Origin: Methylobacterium organophilum
GTDB taxonomy: Bacteria > Pseudomonadota > Alphaproteobacteria > Rhizobiales > Beijerinckiaceae
Length of the DNA stretch: 64,000 nt
Assembly: GCF_022179465.1 (NCBI RefSeq)
Contig: NZ_BPQV01000012.1
Coordinates: 62,001 to 126,000 of the forward strand
Reading direction: 5' to 3'
Part shown: one piece after another, positions 28,750 to 62,131 of the stretch
Position numbering within the stretch: the first letter of the stretch is position 1
Layout: every line of letters begins with the position of its first letter
Made by a program: the position numbers and the translations under genes
Notes under the pieces: model-generated
What the model was told of the DNA's origin: nothing
What the model saw: the letters and a program-made list of their open reading frames with translations, nothing else
Database searches by the model: none

Positions 28750-29859
28750 TCAGCCCGCGGCCGTCTCCAGCTCGCGCAGGATGGCGTCGCCCATCTGCCC
28801 GGTGCTCACCGGAGTCGCTCCCTCCCCCGCGATGTCGCGGGTGCGGACGCCCGCGGCCAGGGTGCGGGTGATGGCCCGCTCCACGAGATCGGCGGCCTCG
28901 CCGAGGCCGAAGGAATAGCGCAGGCACATGGCCAGCGAGCCGATCATCGCGATCGGGTTGGCGAAGCCCTTGCCGGCGATGTCCGGGGCGGAGCCGTGCA
29001 CGGGCTCGTAGAGCGCCTTGCGGGTGCCCTTGGCGTCGACCGCGCCCAGGGAGGCGGAGGGCAGCATGCCCAGGGAGCCGGTAAGCATGGCCGCGACGTC
29101 CGAGAGCACGTCGCCGAACAGGTTGTCGGTCACCAGCACGTCGAACTGTTTGGGCCGGCGCACGAGCTGCATGGCGCAGTTGTCGGCGAGCACGTGCTCC
29201 AGCGCGACCTCCGGGTAATGGTCGGCATGGACCTTGGTGACGACCTCCTTCCAGAGGACGCCGGACTTCATCACGTTGTGCTTCTCCGCGGAGGCGACGC
29301 GGCCGGAGCGCTTCTTGGCGAGGTCGAAGGCGACATGCGCGATGCGCTCGATCTCGGCGGTGGTGTAGACCTGGGTGTCGACGGCGCGCTTCGAGCCGTC
29401 CGGCAGCGTGGTGATCTCCTTCGGCTCGCCGAAATAGACGCCGCCGGTGAGCTCGCGCACGATCATGATGTCGAGGCCCTCGACGAGGTCGCGCTTGAGC
29501 GCGGAGGCCTCGGCCAGCGCCGGGTAGCAGATCGCCGGGCGGAGATTGGCGAACAGGCCGAGATCCTTGCGCAGGCGCAGCAGGCCCGCCTCCGGGCGGA
29601 TGTCGTAGGCGACGCCGTTCCATTTCGGGCCGCCGACGGCGCCGAGCAGGATCGCGTCGGCCGCATCGGCCTTGGCCAGGGTCGCGTCGGCCAGCGGCTT
29701 GCCGTGCACGTCGATGGCGCTGCCGCCGACGAGGTCGGTCTCGGTCTCGAAGGTGGCGAGCCCGCGCCGGGACAGCCAGCCAAGGACCTTCTCGACCTCG
29801 GCCATCACCTCGGGGCCGATGCCGTCGCCGGGGAGGAGCAGGAGCTTGTAGGTGGTCAT
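28750..29859 (-). CDS. leuB: 3-isopropylmalate dehydrogenase
   Basis: NAD-dependent oxidation and decarboxylation of 3-isopropylmalate in leucine synthesis. The 369-residue length is standard. Motifs seen are [16 protein letters not shown] at the N-terminus, [10 protein letters not shown], the substrate loop [13 protein letters not shown], and the NAD-site segment [20 protein letters not shown], cited for Gly-Ser-Ala-Pro-Asp. It reads towards trpG across a 159-base spacer. Upstream of its start the GC-rich core ends and the accessory island begins. Confidence 0.97.
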
Positions 29860-30027: not shown

Positions 30028-30282
30028 TCAAAGGGGAGCGGCCTGCTTACCCAATGGGGTAACAGCGCGCTTCCCGCGAGATTTTCCGGTAGCGGGTCGG
30101 TTTGAATTTCTTTTCCGCCGTCGACGCTTTCGAGAGGTCATCTCTGCCAGTCGCCGTTCGGTTTCATCCCCACTCGGGCGCGACGCATACTCACAAAACG
30201 CGTGGACCGCACCGTGGCAGTCGCGGCAAATCACAACGAGGGCGCTTCGATCCTCGCCCCGGAGTGCCCGAGGTCGATAGTC
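30028..30282 (-). pseudogene. HNH-like endonuclease C-terminal remnant
   Basis: An open frame without a convincing start encodes SALVVICRDCHGAVHAFCEYA and then a very basic tail (SRKRRRRKRNSN). The C-x-x-C-H and xVH spacing resembles the second half of HNH nucleases, but the first half with the other cysteines and the catalytic His is absent: a stop codon lies just upstream at about 30285. It is read as a truncated gene. It could also be a chance frame. Confidence 0.35.
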
Positions 30283-30451
30283 TCAGTGATAAACTTTCCG
30301 AGTATGCTTGCAGCAGTATATGCATTTGTAATTCGCTGCGACGATAGCTTCGATTCTAATATTTATTCACATGCCAGATATAAGATGAGCATTTTAGAAT
30401 GAAAGTGCGCTGCGATCTGTGCTAGATAAGTGTCTTTATTAAAATTCTGTT
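30283..30451. other. AT-rich non-coding stretch
   Basis: Markedly AT-rich sequence between the HNH-like remnant and the next fragment. No supported gene, repeat or RNA is visible. Confidence 0.5.
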
Positions 30452-30576
30452 TCAATCGCCAAGCAGTCTCGGCCACTCCTTCGCGGAGGACATCACGAAG
30501 ATCGGTGTATTTTTAAGATGCGGGTCAAAGTATTCAGCAGAAAGTTGAGAACCTGGACCAATCGGCGGTAGGGCTG
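30452..30576 (-). pseudogene. possible C-terminal fragment of a gene cut by the IS1-type element
   Basis: The last 38 or so codons of this frame (PPIGPGSQLSAEYFDP, then NTPIFVMSSAKEWPRLLGD and a stop) read like real protein and end exactly where the transposase remnant begins. No N-terminal part is found on the other side of the element. I do not recognise the protein. Confidence 0.25.
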
Positions 30577-31443
30577 TCACTGATGTGCTTCCGATGTGGT
30601 CCGCGCTTCGTGGGTTGCATGTCGGCATGCTTCCACCAAAGCCACAATATCTGCAATCTCCCATAGCCGATCTGTCACGCCGGCTGTCATTGCGGGCGTG
30701 ACCCACAGCTTCCCGTGCAATCGGATAAATTTATGATACATGAAGTGCAGTGCCACCGCGTAGGCGTGGTTCTCGACCTTCTTAGAAAACGTGTTCGTGA
30801 GCCGTGTGAACCGGCGCATGTGAATCCGCATCGTGAGGTTCTGGCGCTCGAAGTAGGACGTGGAGACATGCGCGTCGTCAGGTTTGCCCTCGATCTGCTG
30901 TGCTTGTGCGCCCCGGTGCGCATGGGCAGGCTGTAGCGGCTCTTGGCGGCCTCGGGAGCCGTGCCGTACATTTCTGTAGGATGGCGTATTCCATGTCCGC
31001 GCCGAACGCGCCTTCGACGGCTTCAAGGTATGGCTTGTGCCTGTCCGAAGTGAGCTGCACTTGGCCGTTCAGCCACGTCGAGCATGAAGGCGTTGGTGTA
31101 CTCTGCGTCCCACTCGCCTACGAGGTAGGCCAGTATGAGCTTGGTGTCGGTGTCAATCGCGGTCCAGATCCCCACGCCGCCCGCGCAGTCTAGCGCGGCC
31201 TTGGCAGTGGCGACGTTCTTATGCTTGCAGTGTGTGAAGGACCAGATCTCATTCACCTGCACGCGCTTGGCCTCGACGCCGCGAACATGGCGATCGTGGT
31301 AGTCGGCGCACGCCCGGCCAGCGTCCGCGAGCAACTTGGCAATGGTGTTTTTGCTGGCCCCTTTAGATGTACCACACCGCGGATTGAACTACTCTCGCAC
31401 AGCAGGTGAAGGATGTGAGCGCGGTTAGCCTCGGAGAGGCTTA
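30577..31443 (-). pseudogene. IS1-family transposase, multiply frameshifted
   Basis: Decayed transposase. Read on the minus strand the pieces are, in order: NRAHILHLLCESSSIRG (HTH region, about 31443-31357); ASKNTIAKLLADAG and VNEIWSFTHCKHKNVATAKAA with the first catalytic Asp replaced by Asn (31352-31090); VQLTSDRHKPYLEAVEGAFG (to about 30975); MYGTAPEAAKSRYS (to about 30900); and STSYFERQNLTMRIHMRRFTRLTN through VTPAMTAGVTDRLW (to 30577). Each join needs a change of reading frame, so at least four indels have occurred. It cannot be active. Terminal inverted repeats were not identified with confidence. It marks a past insertion at the edge of the AT-rich island. Confidence 0.85.
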
Positions 31444-31479
31444 ATGATCATCCGAAGATATGAACCTTTTGCTTGTCAG

Positions 31480-31671
31480 TCAAGCATGATGGTTTTGTTT
31501 CAATCGCGTTTTCTCTCGATCTTCCCGAAGACTTGCTATGATGCGGTGAGCAGCAGCTTCGCCTTCTTCTTCAGGAGAACCAAGCTCAGGCTCTGCGCGC
31601 AGATGATCCAAGGTATCTTTGCGCCTCAACGCCTGGACATCCATCAGATATTCATTTTTGTCTTGTTTCAT
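31480..31671 (-). CDS. small charged protein overlapping the Ntn-hydrolase gene
   Basis: 63 residues, rich in Glu, Arg and Lys, with no signal, membrane segment or cysteine: MKQDKNEYLMDVQALRR and IIASLREDREKTRL are its recognisable parts. It is predicted to be mostly helical. A strong GAGGAG ribosome binding site lies about 8 bases before the ATG at 31671. The gene starts 20 bases inside the end of the proteasome-like gene, so the two are translated as a pair. It may be a regulator, substrate or assembly partner of that hydrolase; this is inference. I do not recognise a family. Confidence 0.55.
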   Translation of the reverse strand: MKQDKNEYLMDVQALRRKDTLDHLRAEPELGSPEEEGEAAAHRIIASLREDREKTRLKQNHHA

Positions 31672-32929
31672 CGCGCCTCTCCTCAAACTGCAGCTGCTTG
31701 CGTCGAGCGAAGTCGCCGTTCAAAATCGGATCAAAATAGTGCTTTCGCTTCATCCATACAAGTCCATCGCCTTTGGAAATCACAGCTACGTCTGTGGGGC
31801 CGCCAACAGACTCAAGCGGAGAGTCAACGCGACGACGAAGGGACGTGATCTCAACCAGCGCCTCGGCCATCGCTGCCATTTCTTCTTTTGGTAGAGTGGC
31901 AATAACCCGCATTATTGGCTGCACCAACCCTTTATCTCTGTAATCTAAAAATTCTTTACCTAGTTTGCTAATAGTTTTATCATTTTCTCTCTTTTGTAGT
32001 GCGCTTTCGACCTTTTTTTCGTCTTCATCTTGAACATACGCTTTCACAAGACTATCGGACTTTTCGTCCAGAAGTATCTTGAGTGATTTTCTTATATAGT
32101 CGAGGTGCTGTCGCGCTATGCCCTCCAAAAACAAAATTGCTATGTCGCCTTGTCCGAATGGCGTAATGATCGAATTGCTAGTCCCGGCCTTATTGAGATC
32201 GGCGTTCTTTTCCTCGATGGACCAATAACGTAGTATGTCTTTATGTTTTCCATCGATTATATATGCAATTTGGCAAGGAAATATTTGGTTTTTTCCAAAT
32301 CCCGCCACTACCAGTCCCGTCTCATATGTAGAGGACGAGGCTCTGCCAAAACAATTATGGCACAACTTCATTAATTCATTATGAATTTTTTTCGTGATAT
32401 GCGTTTTGAATACATCTTTCTCTAGCTCAAATATCGTGTCGCCATACTTATCCGTAAAATCTTTGAGATTTATTTGCAGATCAATGGGGGCTTGACGATC
32501 TGCGACAGCTTGTTCCGCTGAGATTTGCTTTGCAATTTTCTGCTTGAATTCAGCTGCGGTAGCACACTCGCCAATTCTCTTCTTCATTCGTTCAAATATC
32601 TTTATGAATAAAAGTAAAATACTTGCTCGCTCCTCAGATTCCTGTGTAATCTCAAGAGATTTCAAATATTGCACAAGGTCGTTGGCGCATTCCTCAACCG
32701 TATCATATCTTTTGCTTCCAATGTTTGCTCGAAACGTCTTGATAACAATTTCCCATGGAACGCCGGCAAAGTCTCCGGCTCCATAGGCCATGATTGCAAT
32801 ATCGTTGAACGGCGAAAGAGAAAATAATTTATTCGCTGTTTTCCAAACACGTTGCCGTCCTATTGTGACAGCGCTGTCGGCAGCAAGAGCAACACCGTTG
32901 CGATTAATTATCGTTATCTCTGCTGTCAT
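31652..32929 (-). CDS. proteasome-like Ntn-hydrolase, free-standing
   Basis: 425 residues. If the initiator Met is removed, Thr becomes residue 1, and Asp17 (GVALAADSAV) and Lys33 (TANKLFSLS) fall at exactly the numbers of the proteasome/HslV catalytic Thr1-Asp17-Lys33 set. Further fold matches are IAIMAYGAGDFAG after Lys33, GLVVAGFGKNQIFPCQIAYIIDG and SIITPFGQGDIAILFLEGI. Between about residues 65 and 200 there is a long helical insertion not found in HslV (about 175 residues) or proteasome beta subunits (about 220), and a helical C-terminal extension. It is neither HslV nor Anbu. It probably cleaves a peptide or amide bond in the cytosol. The ATG at 32929 is preferred to the upstream in-frame codons because it exposes Thr1. 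The gene is AT-rich unlike the core, and overlaps a small partner gene. Confidence 0.75.
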   Translation of the reverse strand: MTAEITIINRNGVALAADSAVTIGRQRVWKTANKLFSLSPFNDIAIMAYGAGDFAGVPWEIVIKTFRANIGSKRYDTVEECANDLVQYLKSLEITQESEERASILLLFIKIFERMKKRIGECATAAEFKQKIAKQISAEQAVADRQAPIDLQINLKDFTDKYGDTIFELEKDVFKTHITKKIHNELMKLCHNCFGRASSSTYETGLVVAGFGKNQIFPCQIAYIIDGKHKDILRYWSIEEKNADLNKAGTSNSIITPFGQGDIAILFLEGIARQHLDYIRKSLKILLDEKSDSLVKAYVQDEDEKKVESALQKRENDKTISKLGKEFLDYRDKGLVQPIMRVIATLPKEEMAAMAEALVEITSLRRRVDSPLESVGGPTDVAVISKGDGLVWMKRKHYFDPILNGDFARRKQLQFEERRDETRQK

Positions 32930-32936
32930 CGCGTGA

Positions 32937-33167
32937 CCACCGTTTTGCGGCGGCAGCGGGGGCAATCGCGGAACGCTACTCAGCCGACAGCTTGTCGGCC
33001 CGCGCCCGCCCTCCCTTCAAGCCGCCTCTTCGTGCAAATTCCCTTGCGGGCGAGCTTGTCCGATCAAGCTTAGGTTGTCTATCGGGATCAGTTACACCAG
33101 TTGCCGCATCCACGATGAACTTGGCGAGCTGATTGGGACCGCGGGGGCGCTTGAGAGTGCGGGTCAC
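32937..33167 (-). pseudogene. small conserved KGG-type protein broken by an amber codon
   Basis: Starts at a GTG that overlaps the zinc-ribbon stop (GTGA). It encodes RTLKRPRGPNQLAKFIVDAATG and GGLKGGRARADKLSAE, then TAG at 32976-32978, then continues in frame as RSAIAPAAAAKRW to about 32937. Relatives common in rhizobia and methylobacteria have a full-length C-terminus of form LSxEQRxxIAxxAAxxRW, so a CAG to TAG change explains the stop. The product would lose its basic tail. Function of the family is unknown; the KGG/Lys-Arg style suggests nucleic-acid contact. Confidence 0.65.
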
Positions 33168-33358
33168 GTCGAAGCCTCGTCCGTCGTCTCGACAAGCCGA
33201 AGGCCGATGTACTGCCGCCATTTCGTAAGATTGGTGCGGCAGACCCGACAGCGAGCGTCTTCGCGAGTCTCGATCATCCCCTCCGCAAAAGCTTCGTGAA
33301 TTGCACCGCAGTGCGTACAGGTGATGCGGTCGCCCGGCTTGAGATCGTGTTCAGTCAT
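33164..33358 (-). CDS. small zinc-ribbon protein
   Basis: 64 residues with two CxxC knuckles: Cys14/Cys17 (ITCTHCGAIH) and Cys37/Cys40 (ARCRVCRTNL), the spacing of a four-cysteine zinc ribbon. There is no signal or membrane segment. It is the first gene of the minus-strand array zinc ribbon, KGG-type gene, Ntn-hydrolase, small charged protein, and overlaps the second by four bases. It may bind nucleic acid or protein. It is moderately GC-rich and could be older than the AT-rich part of the island. Confidence 0.65.
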   Translation of the reverse strand: MTEHDLKPGDRITCTHCGAIHEAFAEGMIETREDARCRVCRTNLTKWRQYIGLRLVETTDEAST

Positions 33359-33645
33359 CCTTTTACCATGCCACGTGCACCCGCCGGGACCAAGGGCGGG
33401 TCAAGCGGATGGAATTTCAAACTGACCCACTACCGATCTTTCGTCTCCCCGCGGTGCAGGAGCGTGGCGAGCGCCGGCTTGGAGCGGTTCTCCGATCGCC
33501 CATCGTCCCGCGCGATCCGGCCTGTCGGGCGTTCTTCGATGTCCCGCGCCGATCCCGTCGCGAGTTTTCGCTTGCGATCTGCGCCACAGCCGATCAGCTA
33601 TCGGTTCTCGTGGCCGACCGGGCCCGCGCGGGCAGGATCCTTCCG

Positions 33646-34383
33646 ATGCAGACGACAGGCGAGCCGCCCGGTGCCGGGCATGTCTGCACGCATCACCGCT
33701 CGGAGGCGAGCTGTGCCGAGTGTCAGGTCCGCCTGGTGAGCGTCTGCGCCGCCCTCACCGGCGAGGAGCTCGGCCTGCTGGAAGCGCTGAGCCAGCAGAT
33801 CCACCTCGATCCGCGGCACGCGCTGTTCCGCCAGGGCGACGACGCGAACGCGGTCTACAACGTGACCGAGGGCATGCTGCGCCTGTCGCGGCTGCTGCCG
33901 GACGGGCGACGGCACGTCATGGGCTTCGCGATGGTCGGAGACTTTCTCGGCCTCGCCCTCCCCGCGCGCTTCACCGTCACCGCGGAAGCCCTCGGCCCGG
34001 TGCGCCTCTGCCGGTTCGAGAAGCGCGCCTTCGCGGCCCTGGTCGCGGACAAGCCGCATCTGCTGCAGCGCCTGCACGAGCGGGCGGGCTACGAACTCAC
34101 CCTCGCGCAGGATCACATGATGCTGCTCGGCCGCCGCACCGCCGAGGAGAAGGTGGCGAGCTTCCTTCTGAGCCTGCGCGAGCGCTACGGCCGTATCGGC
34201 CAGACATCCGTGACCCTGGAACTGCCGATGGGGCGCCAGGACATCGCCGACCATCTGGGCCTCACCATCGAAACGGTCAGCCGCATGCTGACCCGCCTCG
34301 ACCGGGAGAAGGCGATCCTCATCGTGCCCGGCGGCGTGCGCCTGCTCGACGGCGGCCGGCTGGAAAGCCTCGCCGCCGCCTGA
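33646..34383 (+). CDS. fnrN: FnrN-type oxygen-sensing Crp/Fnr regulator
   Basis: 245 residues. The N-terminus carries Cys14, Cys23, Cys26 and Cys34 (CAECQVRLVSVC gives CxxC then seven residues then C), and Cys122 lies in VRLCRFEKRAF, the position of the fourth iron-sulfur ligand of E. coli FNR. This supports a [4Fe-4S] oxygen sensor. The cNMP-like barrel covers 40-140, and the HTH near 195-220 (MGRQDIADHLGLTIETVSRML) holds the E-x-x-S-R recognition pattern that reads TTGAT-N4-ATCAA. The ATG at 33646 is used because the sensor cysteines start just after it. FNR-type boxes precede usp, hemN and the cyd genes next door. Confidence 0.88.
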   Translation: MQTTGEPPGAGHVCTHHRSEASCAECQVRLVSVCAALTGEELGLLEALSQQIHLDPRHALFRQGDDANAVYNVTEGMLRLSRLLPDGRRHVMGFAMVGDFLGLALPARFTVTAEALGPVRLCRFEKRAFAALVADKPHLLQRLHERAGYELTLAQDHMMLLGRRTAEEKVASFLLSLRERYGRIGQTSVTLELPMGRQDIADHLGLTIETVSRMLTRLDREKAILIVPGGVRLLDGGRLESLAAA

Positions 34384-57178: not shown

Positions 57179-58474
57179 CTATGCCGCCTGGATCTCCGCG
57201 AAGCGCCGGCAATGGTCGAGGTACCCCACCTCATGCCGCCCCGCCAACTCAACCACGCTCGACCAAAGCCAAGAGGGCGCGTCCGCACCGGATCGACTTT
57301 CGGAGACCGTTCGGCGCCAATCGCGTCGGGTTGCATCCTCCATCTGACGTCCATGCGCCTTGCCCACCACGAAGGCGAGGTAATGTGCCGCTCGGATCGC
57401 CTCTGCGCGGCTGAACTGCTCGACGTCGAGCTTGAGATCTTGCGGAAAGAGTTCACGCATGACCACCGGCTTGCCGAGCACATGAGTGGCCAACATGCGC
57501 TCGCCGAGATTCGGCGAGAGCGCTCTCGCCCCGTTTACCACGCGCTCGGCTTGATCCTTCGGCATCTGCGCGCCTGGGGCAGCAGGGGCAGCCGCTTCGA
57601 CCGCCTCCTTTAGGTCGACGAGAGCGAGCCGCCTTTTCTTCTCCGTCCCGCTGATCCGGATGAGGGCGGCGTAACGGAGGAAACCCAGAGAGCTGCATCC
57701 CTTCATCCAGTAGGCGGCATCAATGAGGCTTACCTTTGCCTCTCCGTCCCCGCCGTTCAGTGCAAGTACGAGGCGGCGTACGGCGGACTCCCGAAACAAG
57801 CTCTCGATCGAATCTCGTTCGTCTGGTGAAAGAGCCCAAAATTTTCGGCCGAGAGGGATGTTGAGTTCCACATCCTTCAAGCGTTCGCGGGCGAGCTGCT
57901 TCCAGCGGCGGCCGAGCGCGCGGCGGCGCACCATCTGGACCACATCAGGCTCAGGCGGCGTCTCGTCTTCCGCCGGCCCCGTTAGACCAAGAGCATAGCC
58001 CCGGATCATCTGGTCCAGCATGTGGGCGGTGACGACGCCCGGCAGGTTCGAGCCGCGCGCGGCGCTGGCCAGCGACAATCCGAGTCTGATGAGATCATGA
58101 ACTGGATTACCGATGACCGCTTGATCAAGATCGCGGATCTGGATGTCGACCCGACCATCGGTATCGGCAAGCGGGCCAAGATTACCGAGATGGCAGTCGC
58201 CGCAGATCCAGATCGGCGGTCCCTCAGGTAGGGTGCCCCGGGAGAGGCCGTCGAGCCACTCGTAGAAACGCAGCGTGTTGCCCCGGACATAGGCATGCGC
58301 CGATCGCGCCATCTTGAGTCTGCGCTGGTGCTCCAGCACGGCCGCTCGTTCGTTCGGCTCACACAGGCCGTCGTGACGCATTCCATGACCTTTTACGCGA
58401 CGCTGGTTGTGCCTGCGCAGCGAAGCCGTATCCGTTTTCAGTCGAGTGTGCAGGGCAGTAGGAGCCTCCGACAT
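57179..58474 (-). CDS. DUF2252 family protein (kinase-like fold)
   Basis: 431 residues. The N-terminal part carries SAHAYVRGNTLRFYEWL. The core GDCHLGNLGPLADTDG resembles the Brenner-type catalytic loop of aminoglycoside-phosphotransferase-like kinases, and IQIRDLDQAVIGNPVHDLIRL resembles the metal-binding Asp segment. The C-terminal half contains KDLKEAVE-like and GKPVVMREL segments. Substrate unknown. The gene is less GC-rich than the ABC genes before it and lies beside a tRNA fragment and IS remnants, so it may be acquired. A second ATG at residue 32 is possible. Confidence 0.85.
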   Translation of the reverse strand: MSEAPTALHTRLKTDTASLRRHNQRRVKGHGMRHDGLCEPNERAAVLEHQRRLKMARSAHAYVRGNTLRFYEWLDGLSRGTLPEGPPIWICGDCHLGNLGPLADTDGRVDIQIRDLDQAVIGNPVHDLIRLGLSLASAARGSNLPGVVTAHMLDQMIRGYALGLTGPAEDETPPEPDVVQMVRRRALGRRWKQLARERLKDVELNIPLGRKFWALSPDERDSIESLFRESAVRRLVLALNGGDGEAKVSLIDAAYWMKGCSSLGFLRYAALIRISGTEKKRRLALVDLKEAVEAAAPAAPGAQMPKDQAERVVNGARALSPNLGERMLATHVLGKPVVMRELFPQDLKLDVEQFSRAEAIRAAHYLAFVVGKAHGRQMEDATRRDWRRTVSESRSGADAPSWLWSSVVELAGRHEVGYLDHCRRFAEIQAA

Positions 58475-58581
58475 ATCACGTTCCCGTCAGCCAGAGTGAC
58501 AAGGTCCAGGCAACGACATCGGCTCAGCCCCAGAGGCACCGAACACATTGGTCTTACAATCGATTTCTCTTCAGGAATTTT
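58475..58581. other. spacer between DUF2252 and the tRNA fragment
   Basis: Upstream region of the DUF2252 gene; must hold its promoter. I see no gene or clear promoter motif. Confidence 0.4.
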
Positions 58582-58622
58582 TGGTGAGCGCGCTGGGACT
58601 CGAACCCAGACCTACAGATTAA
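58582..58622 (-). tRNA. 3' fragment of tRNA-Lys (partial, about 41 bases)
   Basis: On the minus strand the sequence runs from the anticodon-loop side (TTAATCTG) through the variable loop, a perfect T arm (CTGGG TTCGAGT CCCAG), acceptor strand CGCGCTC, discriminator A and encoded CCA. The stem and loop fit tRNA-Lys(TTT). The D arm and 5' acceptor half are missing; the bases beyond are AT-rich and unrelated. Non-functional. Such 3' tails are typical attachment-site footprints of integrases. Confidence 0.75.
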
Positions 58623-58779
58623 GTTAATTGCCGATCGGAAAAAGCAATTATAAATCAATGATCTGTGTGTCCAGGGCAGGCATGACGAACGAGCGAAATC
58701 CATATACGAGCGACCTGGGTTTGGACACAGCCTGAGCGCCTCGTAGAGGCCCCTCCCCTATCAGGCCGATCCGGTGGCA
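58623..58779. other. AT-rich segment with no gene
   Basis: Follows the tRNA fragment. No supported gene. The IS5-type remnant begins somewhere in its last part. Confidence 0.4.
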
Positions 58780-59100
58780 TGGGTCGCTCGCGCGGCGTCC
58801 GACATGCTGGGCGGGTTGGGCGCAGGTCAGATCCTGCTGGGTGATCGGGCCTACGACAGCGACGCGTTGCGCGTCCAGATGGCTGAGCAGGGCGCGTAGG
58901 CTAACTTGAGGCCGATGCCCAACCGCAAGCAGGTGCCGGCTTTCAGCCTGTTCCCCTACAAGTACCGCAATCTCGTCGAGCGCTTCTTCAGCAAGATCAA
59001 TCACTTCCGAGCCGTCGCCACGTGCTACGACAAGGATCCCGAGAACTTCCTGGCCAGCGTCAAGCTCGCAGCCGTGCGGGTCTTACTACGAACTTTATGA
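58780..59100 (+). pseudogene. IS5-family transposase, C-terminal remnant
   Basis: In one frame the sequence reads GLGAGQILLGDRAYDSDALR with the catalytic-region DRAYD, then an amber codon where relatives have Trp (QGA-stop-ANLRPMPNRKQVP), then YRNLVERFFSKINHFRAVATCYDK, the YREK-like motif of IS5 elements, and ends FLASVKLAAVRVLL. The N-terminal half is absent. It is inactive. Confidence 0.8.
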
Positions 59101-59417
59101 GTCCCTTACCTATTCCACGACCTATGCAAATTTTCTGGCAGTGCCAGCTTGGTTGTCGAAGTCTCGGGGAGTCAAAATGGCTCACGCCTCTCAAGCAGTT
59201 GGCTATATTAAATCTGTATGTTTTTATATTTTTTGTTTTCTGGAAAATTATTCTGATTATGTTCGGTCATTGTTGAACTTTGAAAAATCGAGATGATTTT
59301 ATCGATATTGGTGGCTTTCGTGACGTTGCACACATCAATTGCGAGCCGAATGATTCAACTATAACGCGTTCGAACTTAAGCCAGAAACTCGAACGCGCCA
59401 TCAGAGGAAGAGGTGTT
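59101..59417. other. AT-rich leader region
   Basis: Spacer before the double-glycine peptide gene. The reading frame of that gene is open back to a TTG at 59280, but no ribosome binding site supports that start. It may hold the promoter. Confidence 0.4.
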
Positions 59418-59663
59418 ATGAATTATTTTTTAAATTCCCCAGAAGCTTTCGAAAATCTAAACGATGCGCAGCTCGATGGTATCGTGGGTGGATGGTCATT
59501 TTTTCCTCGCCCAGATATTCACAGAATTGATTGGAAAGACGGAAAATATGTAACAACTGCCATTCATAAATACAAAGATGGTAAATATGAATTAGATAAA
59601 AGTGCGCTTGAAGAGTTGAGGAAAATCAATGGAGGGATATATACTGGAGCCGTCGGGATATAG
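59418..59663 (+). CDS. putative peptide precursor with double-glycine leader motifs
   Basis: 81 residues. AGAGGAAGAGG precedes the ATG at 59418. Residues 1-25 fit a bacteriocin/RiPP-type leader ending LNDAQLDGIVGG, with the cleavage pair Gly24-Gly25. The following part is WSFFPRPDIHRIDWKDGKY and onward, rich in Lys, Tyr and Asp, with no cysteine. Near the end a second such motif occurs, LEELRKINGG (Gly72-Gly73), leaving IYTGAVGI. The gene is AT-rich unlike the core. No peptidase-transporter or modification enzyme is in the window. Possible roles are a secreted signal or antimicrobial peptide; this is inference. Confidence 0.6.
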   Translation: MNYFLNSPEAFENLNDAQLDGIVGGWSFFPRPDIHRIDWKDGKYVTTAIHKYKDGKYELDKSALEELRKINGGIYTGAVGI

Positions 59664-59710
59664 ATTTTCTACAGAACTATGAGAATAAAAATAAAATATT
59701 TCCTGAGTTT

Positions 59711-59917
59711 GTGACCTCAATCGTGCCTTGGATCGGGCTTAATGGCAGGTTGCTGCATGTACTAGCTGTAGCTTGCCAAATGGCTCGATCCGAAGGGGCT
59801 GCGGTCGATGCCTCGGCTCTCGCCCGATCCGTTATCGCGCGCCTGGAATCCACGACCGTTCAGCACGGGGCTGCCCTGCGCCGCGCCATCCTTGCCGCGC
59901 CGGTGGTCCGTGAGTGA
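59711..59917 (+). CDS. hypothetical small protein
   Basis: 68 residues from a GTG. Contains LLHVLAVACQMARSEGAAVDASALARSVIARLE, cited in part, which is predicted helical. No family recognised. Its last codons overlap the next small frame (GTGAGTGA), which argues weakly for a real pair. Could be the remnant of a phage or plasmid gene. Confidence 0.35.
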   Translation: MTSIVPWIGLNGRLLHVLAVACQMARSEGAAVDASALARSVIARLESTTVQHGAALRRAILAAPVVRE

Positions 59918-60050
59918 CGAACCGCCCGCCCAGCACTTCGAGCGCTACCTGAAGGATGCGGATCGGGCCTGCCGGAGCGCTATCGCAACCTGGGCTGGCC
60001 ACGACCTCAACCCGCACCGTTTCTCTTCCGGGCCGTTCTGCGGACAATGA
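59910..60050 (+). CDS. hypothetical small protein overlapping the previous frame
   Basis: 46 residues from a GTG inside the end of the preceding frame: SDEPPAQHFERYLKDADRACRS and HDLNPHRFSSGPFCGQ are its parts. Higher GC than the AT-rich DNA around it. No family recognised. Low confidence. Confidence 0.35.
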   Translation: MSDEPPAQHFERYLKDADRACRSAIATWAGHDLNPHRFSSGPFCGQ

Positions 60051-60742
60051 AGCTCATCAATGCTCAGTCGGTCGGGCTTTTAAAATTTCTCCGAAGATAT
60101 ATCCAATTTCGATGAGTACTTTTCTCGGCGCCCTGCAGGCCATGCATAATTTTCATTTTGCGAATAATTTATTAGTTTGATTGTCAATTCGTGAATATAA
60201 GTAATTCATATTATATTTCGTCATCTTTGAGAGATTTTGAAGGCAACGCTATCTGCCTTGACTCGATATCTCGCGCAGAAATGCTGGCAGATAAAATTTA
60301 ATCAGTCCACGAATTGCAGGTTGCAATGTCTCGTCGTTTTGCCAATCAGGATGCTCGGCTTGGTCGCGCACGCCATCGGTCGCGTGTTGTGCTAGATCGC
60401 CCGAGGGCGGTCTGCCTTCTGGACGCGCCCGACGATTTACAGCGATCTATCCGGGAGCAGACATTGCAGAGCGGCTGCCTATGCTCAAGGTGCTCACCCG
60501 GGGCGTCGCGCTCGTCATCGGTGGTCAGGAGTACAGGTATCGCCTTCTTAGGGACTTGCCCTCCTCCCTGTTTGACTCCGTCGTCCGGAATATGTGGAGC
60601 TAGTCCGTCGTCTCGCAATCCTTGATCTTGCCGACCAAGGTCAAACTCTTGGGCAATGCCAGCTTTCAGCCGCTGTCGCTCTCGAAGCGTGCTTTATAGA
60701 GTAGCAGCCCGACGGAAGCGAACGCGTATCCATAAGAGTCTG
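60051..60742. other. region with no firmly supported gene
   Basis: AT-rich to about 60330, then mixed. One frame (about 60391-60603, plus strand) encodes IYPGADIAERLPMLKVL and VIGGQEYRYRLLRDLP, which reads like protein but has no start codon or ribosome binding site. It may be a decayed gene. No repeat or RNA is evident. Confidence 0.4.
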
Positions 60743-62131
60743 TCACGATCGCAGTGTGATCAATCGGTCCGCGATCCGCTCGGCCATCTCCGCGTCATGC
60801 GTGACGAAGAGGATGGCGAGACCGTCACGCTCGCTTGCCTCGCGCAGCATCCCCGCAACCTGCATCTGGTTGATGGGATCGAGGCGCGACGTCGCCTCGT
60901 CCGCGAACAGAAAGACGGGATCGAGCAAGAGCACGCGTGCCAGGGCGAACCTCTGTAGTTCACCACCTGAGAGTTCACCGGGGCGCTGCTTTCGAAGACG
61001 AGGCGACAGCTTCAGGCGAGAGAGCAGCGCCTCGACACGCTCCAGGTCCAAGCCATGCCTTCGCGCCAGGTGGTCGAGCGCCCGTCCCATGTTCTGGTGC
61101 GGCACGAAAGCCGCCGGAGGATCCTGGTAGAGCTTCTGGAACCTGTTCGGTGCGGCACCCGGTGCGCGTTGGACCCAGCCGCGATCCGGCCTCTCGGTAC
61201 CGACGAGGATGTTACCGAGCGTGGTCTTGCCGCTGCCGCTCGGGCCGACCACGGCGACGATCTCGCCCGCACGGACTTGGACGCTCAGGTCCATGAACAG
61301 TCGCCGGCGCCCGAACACTTTCGCCAAGCCCGTCCCATTGATCACGACGGAGCCTAGCTGCCGCGGCGCGCAGTGCGGCCAGGTGCTCGGGTCGGCGTCG
61401 ATCAGCGCCCGCGTGTAGGGATGGACGGGCGCATCGAGGACCTCCGCCGTCGGCCCCGCCTCGACCGCATGCCCGTCGAGCATCACGCAGGTCGTGCCGC
61501 CAAGGGCACGGGCCAGCGCGATGTCGTGCGTGATCGTCAGGAGTAAGCGCCCGGCCGCGACCTCGCGCTGCAGCCGCGCGACGACATCGCCACGCAAGAC
61601 GCCGTCGAGGCCCTTACTAGGCTCGTCGGCGAGAAGGATTGGGGCTTCCGCCGCGTGCGCCATGGCGAGTGCGAGGCGCTGGCACATGCCGCCCGACATC
61701 TGGAACGGGTAATGCCCATCCGCCTCGGTGAGGCCGACCTCGTCAAGCCCGGCGGCGGCGTGACGGTCCGCGTCGCGTCGACGGTGCACGTACCGGTGGA
61801 CCTCGGCGAGTTGCCCCTTAGCCCGCATTGTCGGATCGAGGGCGGTCCAGGGCTCTTGGGGGAGGAGACCGATGCGCCGTCCCCATAGGTTCCGTCGCGC
61901 CGCGCCGTCGAGGCGCAGGAGATCCGCGCCATCGAGGAGGATACGGCCGCTCGCGACGAGACCCGGCGGCAAGGTCCCCATGATGGCCTGGGCCACGAGC
62001 GACTTGCCCGAACCGGACTCGCCGAGCAGTGTCAGCGGCTCGCCCCGCCCGACCGCAGCCGAGAAGCCGGAGACCAGAACCCGGCCTTCCGTGCGGATCG
62101 TGAGATCCTCGATGCGTAGGGCTGTCGTCAC
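60743..62131 (-). CDS. peptide/nickel-type ABC importer, fused double ATPase (DppD-DppF type)
   Basis: 462 residues from a GTG that overlaps the permease stop (GTGA). It has two complete ATPase modules in one chain. Module 1: GESGSGKSLVAQ, MSGGMCQRLALAMA and LLADEPSKGLD. Module 2 from about 250: VGPSGSGKTTLGN, LSGGELQRFALARVL and LFADEATSRLD. Such fusions replace separate OppD/OppF-like subunits. Domain 1 ends in the VHPYTRALI motif of oligopeptide ATPases. It is the last gene of the operon. Confidence 0.92.
   Translation of the reverse strand: MTTALRIEDLTIRTEGRVLVSGFSAAVGRGEPLTLLGESGSGKSLVAQAIMGTLPPGLVASGRILLDGADLLRLDGAARRNLWGRRIGLLPQEPWTALDPTMRAKGQLAEVHRYVHRRRDADRHAAAGLDEVGLTEADGHYPFQMSGGMCQRLALAMAHAAEAPILLADEPSKGLDGVLRGDVVARLQREVAAGRLLLTITHDIALARALGGTTCVMLDGHAVEAGPTAEVLDAPVHPYTRALIDADPSTWPHCAPRQLGSVVINGTGLAKVFGRRRLFMDLSVQVRAGEIVAVVGPSGSGKTTLGNILVGTERPDRGWVQRAPGAAPNRFQKLYQDPPAAFVPHQNMGRALDHLARRHGLDLERVEALLSRLKLSPRLRKQRPGELSGGELQRFALARVLLLDPVFLFADEATSRLDPINQMQVAGMLREASERDGLAILFVTHDAEMAERIADRLITLRS

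Follow-up and report, generated by a model that had tools for sequence, protein, structure and literature searches.

The window analysed here, a stretch of 64,000 nucleotides from a Methylobacterium organophilum contig, contains an AT-rich island, which is a decayed IS1-like transposon carrying the gene of a proteasome-fold enzyme and an overlapping partner gene (Table 1). The original prediction had placed this gene pair in an AT-rich island beside a dead transposase. The island was confirmed, with a GC content of 51% inside and 73% in 6 kb of flanks, and it exists because a 3,347-bp element of 51% GC sits in surroundings of 73% GC. The transposase is dead as described, its remnants lying in two frames with a stop, but it does not lie beside the island, since it is part of the same transposon. 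Its open stretch at 30577-31026 still matched Pfam DDE_Tnp_IS1 with an E-value of 3.1e-5. In the window, the enzyme and partner genes retain open frames; the transposase and the accessory gene are decayed, with open copies elsewhere, and the accessory frame remains recognisable beyond its premature stop. Inside the left end lies a 64-aa ORF, and several sister elements have a small ORF at that place as well.

Table 1. Features of the IS1-like element, in positions of the window
Feature	Position	Strand	Basis
Whole cargo-carrying IS1-like transposon, 3,347 bp, GC 51%	30088..33434		Terminal repeats, GC
Left terminal inverted repeat, 19 bp, 5' of cargo genes	33416..33434	-	Exact match to the repeat of L148
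64-aa ORF inside left end, weakly zinc-ribbon-like	33164..33358	-	Zn_ribbon_RPAB4, E 6.5e-4, under cut-off
Accessory gene ('KGG-like'), 81-aa ORF, frame stops early	32976..33221	-	Homologues in sister elements
Proteasome-like Ntn-hydrolase, 425 aa, Thr1/Asp17/Lys33	31652..32929	-	ORF translation, homologue conservation, model, fold matches
Partner gene, 63 aa, charged, probably disordered	31480..31671	-	ATG start; position, size, selection, disorder score
Decayed IS1-like transposase, part with residues 30-186, one internal stop	30900..31361	-	62% identity to L154 transposase (contig 92900-93361); open stretch 31023-31334
Decayed IS1-like transposase, part with residues 180-277, different frame	30625..30918	-	78% identity to L154 transposase (contig 92625-92918); open stretch 30577-31026
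Right terminal inverted repeat, 19 bp	30088..30106	+	2 mismatches

The boundaries of the element are given by its terminal repeats, for which the corresponding repeat in the homologous loci L148, L154, L031 and L035 is near GGTAGTGGGTCAGTTTGAA. When up to 3 mismatches were allowed, the window contained no matches other than these two repeats, with 0 matches in 100 shuffles; when up to 2 were allowed, the same held for the whole 5.06-Mb genome, where the backwards control gave none. The 8-mers immediately outside them, GAAAGATC and GGAAAATC, agree at 6 of 8 positions, making an imperfect target duplication. The element is flanked by leuB (28750-29859) and an Fnr-like gene (33409-34383). As listed, the latter ORF starts with codons that read across the end of the transposon. 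A clean unoccupied site for the window's element was not found in relatives, where leuB and the Fnr-like gene lie far apart (for example, 2.73 and 1.51 Mb in the genome G018). Because the two genes are separate there, the element sits at a rearranged junction, which also fits the imperfect 8-bp duplication. Elsewhere in the window, a second GC dip (48-60% at 58001-61000, against mostly 65-75% GC) may be another mobile element.

The larger cargo gene encodes the 425-aa protein with the N-terminus MTAEITIINRNGVALAADSAVTIGRQRVWKTANKLF, from which the numbering claimed in the original prediction can be read directly: after removal of the Met, residues 1, 17 and 33 are Thr, Asp and Lys. Homologues were collected from 13 genome loci (two of them partial), 10 plasmids, 13 phage records, 80 of 166 viral contigs and further genomes, and 130 profile-matched ORFs yielded 121 full-length proteins (alignment start at 1 or 2 and end at 395 or later; the duplicate L022 was dropped), from which an 80% identity cut left 80 representatives. 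Residue 1 was set to M in all rows, the actual starts being MT in 93, VT in 14, LT in 11, MS in 2 and IT in 1 of the 121. Among the representatives, Asp17 and Lys33 were invariant (80/80 each) and position 1 was Thr in all but two (78/80), which have Ser, a count restricted to proteins whose alignment begins at position 1 or 2. For the oxyanion residue Gly47 the register is uncertain: among the 80, alignment column 50 is Gly 50 times and Asn 22 times, and column 49 is Tyr 70 times.

Profile matches of the enzyme to the proteasome were under cut-off for both Pfam Proteasome (E 0.11) and the NCBIfam archaeal beta subunit (E 0.092), that to PHROG 1040 on the HslV side was weak (E 0.034), and a phmmer search against PDB sequences gave no significant match (a tropomyosin chain at E 0.26 and the best proteasome chain at E 1). 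Since the Pfam match is sub-threshold, profile searching alone does not prove kinship with the proteasome, and the proof comes from the fold and the family conservation. The AlphaFold2 model (pLDDT 89.6, pTM 0.85) bears out the expected Ntn-hydrolase fold and is of the proteasome beta type, with structural fold matches in which model residue 2 is the first one aligned to chain residue 1. Both refuting outcomes named in the original prediction, an unrelated fold and homologues lacking conserved Thr1, Asp17 and Lys33, are thereby contradicted. It further contains helical insertions at residues 97-194 and about 273-345 and a C-terminal helix at 405-424 (numbering including the Met). What did not hold was the suggestion that the protein is new as a family, because residues 1-410 match PHROG 5990, a family of phage proteins with no assigned function, with an E-value of 2.3e-89. 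The enzyme family is already known, as PHROG 5990 and, from its features and assigned by description, as PMI-4.

Flank clustering identified the window's broken transposase as the remnant of an IS1-like transposase of 291-304 residues, which in L148, L154, L031 and L035 is encoded in an open frame on the same strand directly after the partner gene; an accessory gene of 81-101 residues lies directly before the enzyme gene. The L154 transposase matched DDE_Tnp_IS1 above the gathering score (E 3.6e-8) and the NCBIfam IS1 equivalog with an E-value of 3.9e-17, its 62.9 of 100 bits being below the cut-off. The transposase was found in 23 of 120 relatives' genomes (E 0.001) and, across the class, in 33 of the 385 genomes (E 1e-40 or better). 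We examined 50 transposase loci, six with the enzyme, 14 from relatives and 30 from the class; the inverted repeat was first recognised at four of the enzyme loci, so the 14 and 30 other loci constitute an independent test. The repeat pair was present at 41 of the 50 loci, namely 6/6 enzyme loci, 10/14 loci from relatives and 25/30 from the class, and was not found at L206, L209, L210 and L211 among the 14 or at L246, L249, L254, L267 and L271 among the 30. IS1-type target duplications are 8-9 bp long. Perfect 8-bp duplications flank 33 of the 41 elements with a repeat pair (3 with the enzyme, 9 from relatives and 21 from the class), and two further class elements have duplications agreeing at 7 of 8 positions, compared with 9 matches in 82,000 draws of random 8-mer pairs. 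The elements are 1,859 to 4,631 bp long (median 3,227), and their GC content is below that of the flanks in 40 of 41. The transposase is decayed too in L155, the sixth enzyme element and the one of the six whose enzyme gene is interrupted by an internal stop.

The genes carried between the ends vary from element to element. Cargo of the sister elements was surveyed in 69 proteins, from ORFs that were hand-picked and mostly at least 100 aa long, with counts from the first 25 of 31 families. Pfam matches included HTH_3 (14 proteins), Peptidase_M78 (IrrE-like, 13), HigB-like toxin (3), SocA_Panacea antitoxin (2), nSTAND1 (2), an SDH-type protease (1) and GNAT (1, in L148), while those to P63C, DUF6941, DUF4760, DUF4145 and Bro-N were functionally uninformative. 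Several of the matched families are typical of toxin–antitoxin and defence loci. By analogy, the toxin–antitoxin-like cargo of the sister elements suggests a putative cell-policing or anti-virus role for the enzyme. Peptidase_M78 proteins are anti-repressor proteases in other systems, and their presence in the sister elements would also fit an enzyme that works for the element itself, in its transposition or maintenance, for example as a peptidase turning over a repressor. Such an element-serving role is suggested in outline for Tn3 toxin–antitoxin genes in the available text of one study (PMC7157771). We regard this explanation as unlikely for the enzyme, because phages, satellites and plasmids carry this cassette too, with no IS1-like transposase beside it in the annotated stretches inspected.

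Three other features of the sister elements were recorded. An extra GNAT acetyltransferase gene lies between the transposase and the right repeat of L148 (11690-12229), which points to a second slot for cargo. One cargo protein, 252-312 aa long and with a motif like PAYPAIPLxxAIER recognised by eye, recurs in four IS1-like elements (L247 5652-6449, L255 5101-5925, L261 4941-5876 and L264 5238-5993) and in L254 (4187-4981), where it adjoins the transposase and no repeat pair was found. The accessory gene occurs near the left repeat in many sister elements, whatever their cargo, and its product ends approximately in GGxARAxxLSxExRxEIAxxAAxxRW; two intact relatives had no Pfam or NCBIfam match, and the gene is possibly a regulator or a transposition helper.

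The second cargo gene also agreed with the original prediction of an overlapping gene for 63 residues, as its first 20 nt coincide with the end of the enzyme gene and its ATG is preceded by the purine-rich gaggagagg. Under a strict rule (ATG at -40 to +25 of the enzyme stop, length 40-90 aa), a partner ORF was present at 59 of 74 enzyme loci, which are the representatives with 300 bp downstream, versus 39 of 320 control frames from the same loci; the controls are stop-to-stop frames of at least 200 aa with overlapping shorter ones removed, a few of which may be non-genes. Among the 78 representatives with enough sequence (all but L017 and L034), a small ORF was absent downstream in four (L019, L027, L061 and L117) and three had doubtful ones only (L026, L111 and L115). 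L027, which is the L149 gene, has a small ORF that starts about 60 nt before the stop and thus falls outside the rule. In all 13 partner pairs of 60-97% identity pN was lower than pS (for example, 0.09 versus 0.68 and 0.11 versus 0.67), so the partner ORFs look protein-coding and selected. The pairing of a free-standing enzyme with a small partner extends beyond the window, given a small downstream ORF in most representatives and partner pairs under selection.

The 77 unique partners, with a mean length of 59 aa, have position, size, charge and predicted disorder in common. They fell into 48 BLAST groups, with likeness confined to close relatives, and an alignment of five sequences was poor; treating them as a single sequence family was therefore rejected. 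A FoldIndex-type score was negative for 67 of the 77 partners and for none of the 121 enzymes. When the enzyme and partner of L101 were modelled as one read-through protein, the partner blocks came out with low confidence (pLDDT 26-64) and no confident contact with the enzyme was seen, only 3 of 43 alignment rows containing the partner. A C-terminal helix theme was noticed by eye in many partners. PADLOC matched neither the enzyme nor the partner to any of its families at E-values up to 10. A small disordered protein adjoining a proteasome homologue resembles Pup. Connectase, moreover, is a proteasome fold able to ligate, according to the available text on the proteasome-like families (PMC8665760), and the partner might then be a substrate or tag, and not an inhibitor, with the enzyme ligating or cutting it as in connectase or the Pup–proteasome pair. 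This appears improbable, since the partner terminus is unconserved, none of the 77 unique partners ends in GG, GGE or GGQ, and a long insert between early strands, at the connectase site, is absent from the secondary structure of the enzyme model.

The enzyme is patchily distributed. At an E-value of 0.001 or better, matches were found in 6 of 100 relatives, in 17 of 385 genomes of the class and in 10 of 398 of the phylum, these counts including the own genome and some fragments. Within the genus, 6 of 60 genomes have the enzyme, counting the own one; in the genus relative L028 the enzyme is a short divergent form. A DNA match covering 12-16% of a Providencia query was present in 22 of 5,426 E. 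coli genomes, and the two E. coli loci inspected among these matches encode full-length homologues. Besides other transposons, the enzyme–partner cassette is found again in phage satellites, prophages and plasmids, and also at some chromosomal loci. The streptococcal satellites Javan103 and Javan468 end in this gene pair, with the partner annotated, and the cassette is carried by phages of Providencia, Porphyromonas, Streptococcus azizii and Stenotrophomonas, by two E. coli prophages and by plasmids; the matches in viral contigs are biased towards prophages by the choice of collection. In the satellite Javan421 (L133 11046-12658), the enzyme gene is followed by genes of a HAD hydrolase and a RelBE toxin–antitoxin pair.

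In two Alphaproteobacteria (L160 3082-7349 and L162 7240-11462), queA and tgt flank a distant form of the enzyme, and these copies look resident rather than mobile. Downstream of the enzyme, L160 has a gene for 137 aa and L162 no clear gene; among the distant loci L112-L118, five of seven have a downstream gene for 131-194 aa, often with an aromatic and basic end as judged by eye. The two queA–tgt loci would suit an enzyme that acts alone, as a housekeeping-type protease or a stress hydrolase, and is mobile by chance, with the partner as an assembly factor, as would the statement, in the available text of Fuchs et al. (PMC8665760), that there is no function-suggesting genomic context and no co-occurring AAA+ partner. 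We consider it doubtful, because the patchy presence (17/385 and 10/398) together with the repeated positions as mobile cargo points to a selfish or conditional role.

We also inspected the neighbourhoods of the cassette. It is oriented opposite to both neighbours in the E. coli 120899 prophage and the Stenotrophomonas phage; however, among 64 loci the nearest ORFs of at least 100 aa were both reversed in 11 and both co-directional in 29, and orientation in general does not favour a solitary cassette. In Chryseobacterium (L008 9938-15792) the enzyme gene is near Septu PtuA/PtuB and a Type I restriction subunit. A PADLOC scan of 144 neighbouring ORFs of at least 100 aa at 19 loci (from 237 ORFs at 26 loci) traced known defence genes at one locus, L008, and this 1/19 is not claimed as enrichment. 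Among the neighbours as a whole, single strong matches were to a Type IV restriction enzyme, AbiD, a RecD-like protein and the candidate models PDC-S01 and PDC-S68, and those to mad3, mad8 and AriA resemble generic ATPase matches. At an E-value of 1e-10, PADLOC matched 3 of 10 proteins, and nine other proteins of four loci had no match, save those of L008. Genes of multiubiquitin and ThiF were noticed near three rhizobial plasmid copies (L135 7944-11751, L136 10699-14210 and L019 4733-6799), two from Rhizobium, which are additionally near genes of DUF6527 and a ClpP-type protease, and one from Mesorhizobium. Whether by chance or functional, this ubiquitin-like link was set aside as passing, as the other annotated loci inspected have no such genes.

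Taken together, the transposon cargo may be a Thr1 hydrolase with a partner that acts as a toxin–antitoxin-like or anti-phage module, a reading to which we give a probability of about 0.5. In this model, methionine aminopeptidase would remove the Met and leave Thr1 free from birth, with no need for a propeptide, and Thr1, together with Asp17 and Lys33, would attack a protein amide bond. The disordered, fast-evolving partner, made from the same message, would bind the enzyme and either restrain it or supply its target. The pair would be silent in a healthy cell and be activated once its balance is disturbed, whether by an infecting phage or because the element is lost, with protection or addiction of the carrier element's host as the outcome. 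The defence link raised in the original prediction is plausible, by analogy, given that the cassette is cargo of transposons, satellites, prophages and plasmids and that the sister elements carry toxin–antitoxin cargo; this step from hydrolase to toxin–antitoxin or anti-phage module thus draws mainly on guilt by association. Points against this model are the missing confident contact in the read-through model, the spread of the partners over 48 BLAST groups, the lack of PADLOC matches, the one locus of 19 with traced defence genes, the mixed orientations, the resident-looking queA–tgt copies, the representatives that gave no partner ORF or a doubtful one, and the interrupted or short enzymes of L155 and L028. 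More tentatively, we propose that IS1-like transposons swap toxin–antitoxin or defence cargo between fixed ends and that one such cargo might be an unrecognised two-component system, in which a threonine-type relative of the proteasome would be controlled by a tiny disordered partner, to our knowledge the first proteasome-fold toxin or anti-phage effector. The recurrent partner and the cargo habit offer a handle on the function of one of the larger proteasome-like families. If the enzyme proves toxic or protective, the proteasome fold would join the effectors of phage defence. A very small type of element, with a fixed frame and exchangeable toxin–antitoxin-like genes, would also provide a simple route to further systems between its repeats.

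Among known proteins, the closest by description is PMI-4, a 'Proteasome homolog with Multiple Insertions' and one of 22 proteasome-like families for which the available text reports no context hinting at function (Fuchs, Alva and Lupas 2021, PMC8665760). As far as that text describes it, PMI-4 shares with the window enzyme Thr1, Asp17 and Lys33, the lack of a propeptide, the proteasome beta fold and an occurrence in many phyla and phages. It has insertions after H1/H2 and between H3/H4, to which the enzyme's helices at 97-194 and 273-345 correspond by description only, and assignment to its cluster (representative HDY66466.1) is likewise by description. Unlike the window cassette, PMI-4 is described there with no partner gene, transposon or suggestive context (PMC8665760). 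The same text argues that long insertions may hinder ring stacking in PMI proteins (PMC8665760), and by analogy those of the enzyme may block the self-compartmentalisation that the original prediction had considered. PHROG 5990 matches the enzyme over its full length and is silent on a partner and on transposons. Anbu chains that matched are 233-241 residues long, and the window enzyme, longer by about 190 residues and with two long helical insertions, is thus not an Anbu-type subunit of about 235 residues without long insertions. HslV has the fold family and the catalytic numbering in common with the enzyme, matches it weakly by profile and is about half the length of its 425 aa. As predicted from the outset, neither an HslU-like gene nor an Anbu-type neighbour is present among the ORFs of the element. 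The Pup–proteasome system likewise combines a proteasome-type enzyme with a small protein, though the window-type partners are without the Pup end, and connectase is a proteasome-fold ligase whose characteristic insertion was not seen in the enzyme model.

Among the literature matches listed, in a search whose scope excluded preprints and most of the subscription literature, no paper dealt with the partner gene, a defence role of the family or IS1-like elements with the enzyme as cargo, and none with IS1-like elements carrying interchangeable toxin–antitoxin or protease cargo; a term search of the available text of two satellite papers (Rousset et al. 2022, PMC9122126; PMC13376191) found no mention of the enzyme. 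The window element family has the DDE_Tnp_IS1 transposase, inverted repeats and 8-bp duplications in common with the IS1 family, and differs from it in a single-ORF transposase that falls under the NCBIfam IS1 cut-off. Tn3-family transposons with toxin–antitoxin passengers are known and resemble the window family in this cargo, with a different transposase family and, in the available text, no proteasome-like cargo described (PMC7157771). Insertion sequences that carry passenger genes are known as tIS and, as far as the available text describes them, have extra genes between the element ends just as the window family does (PMC7986276).
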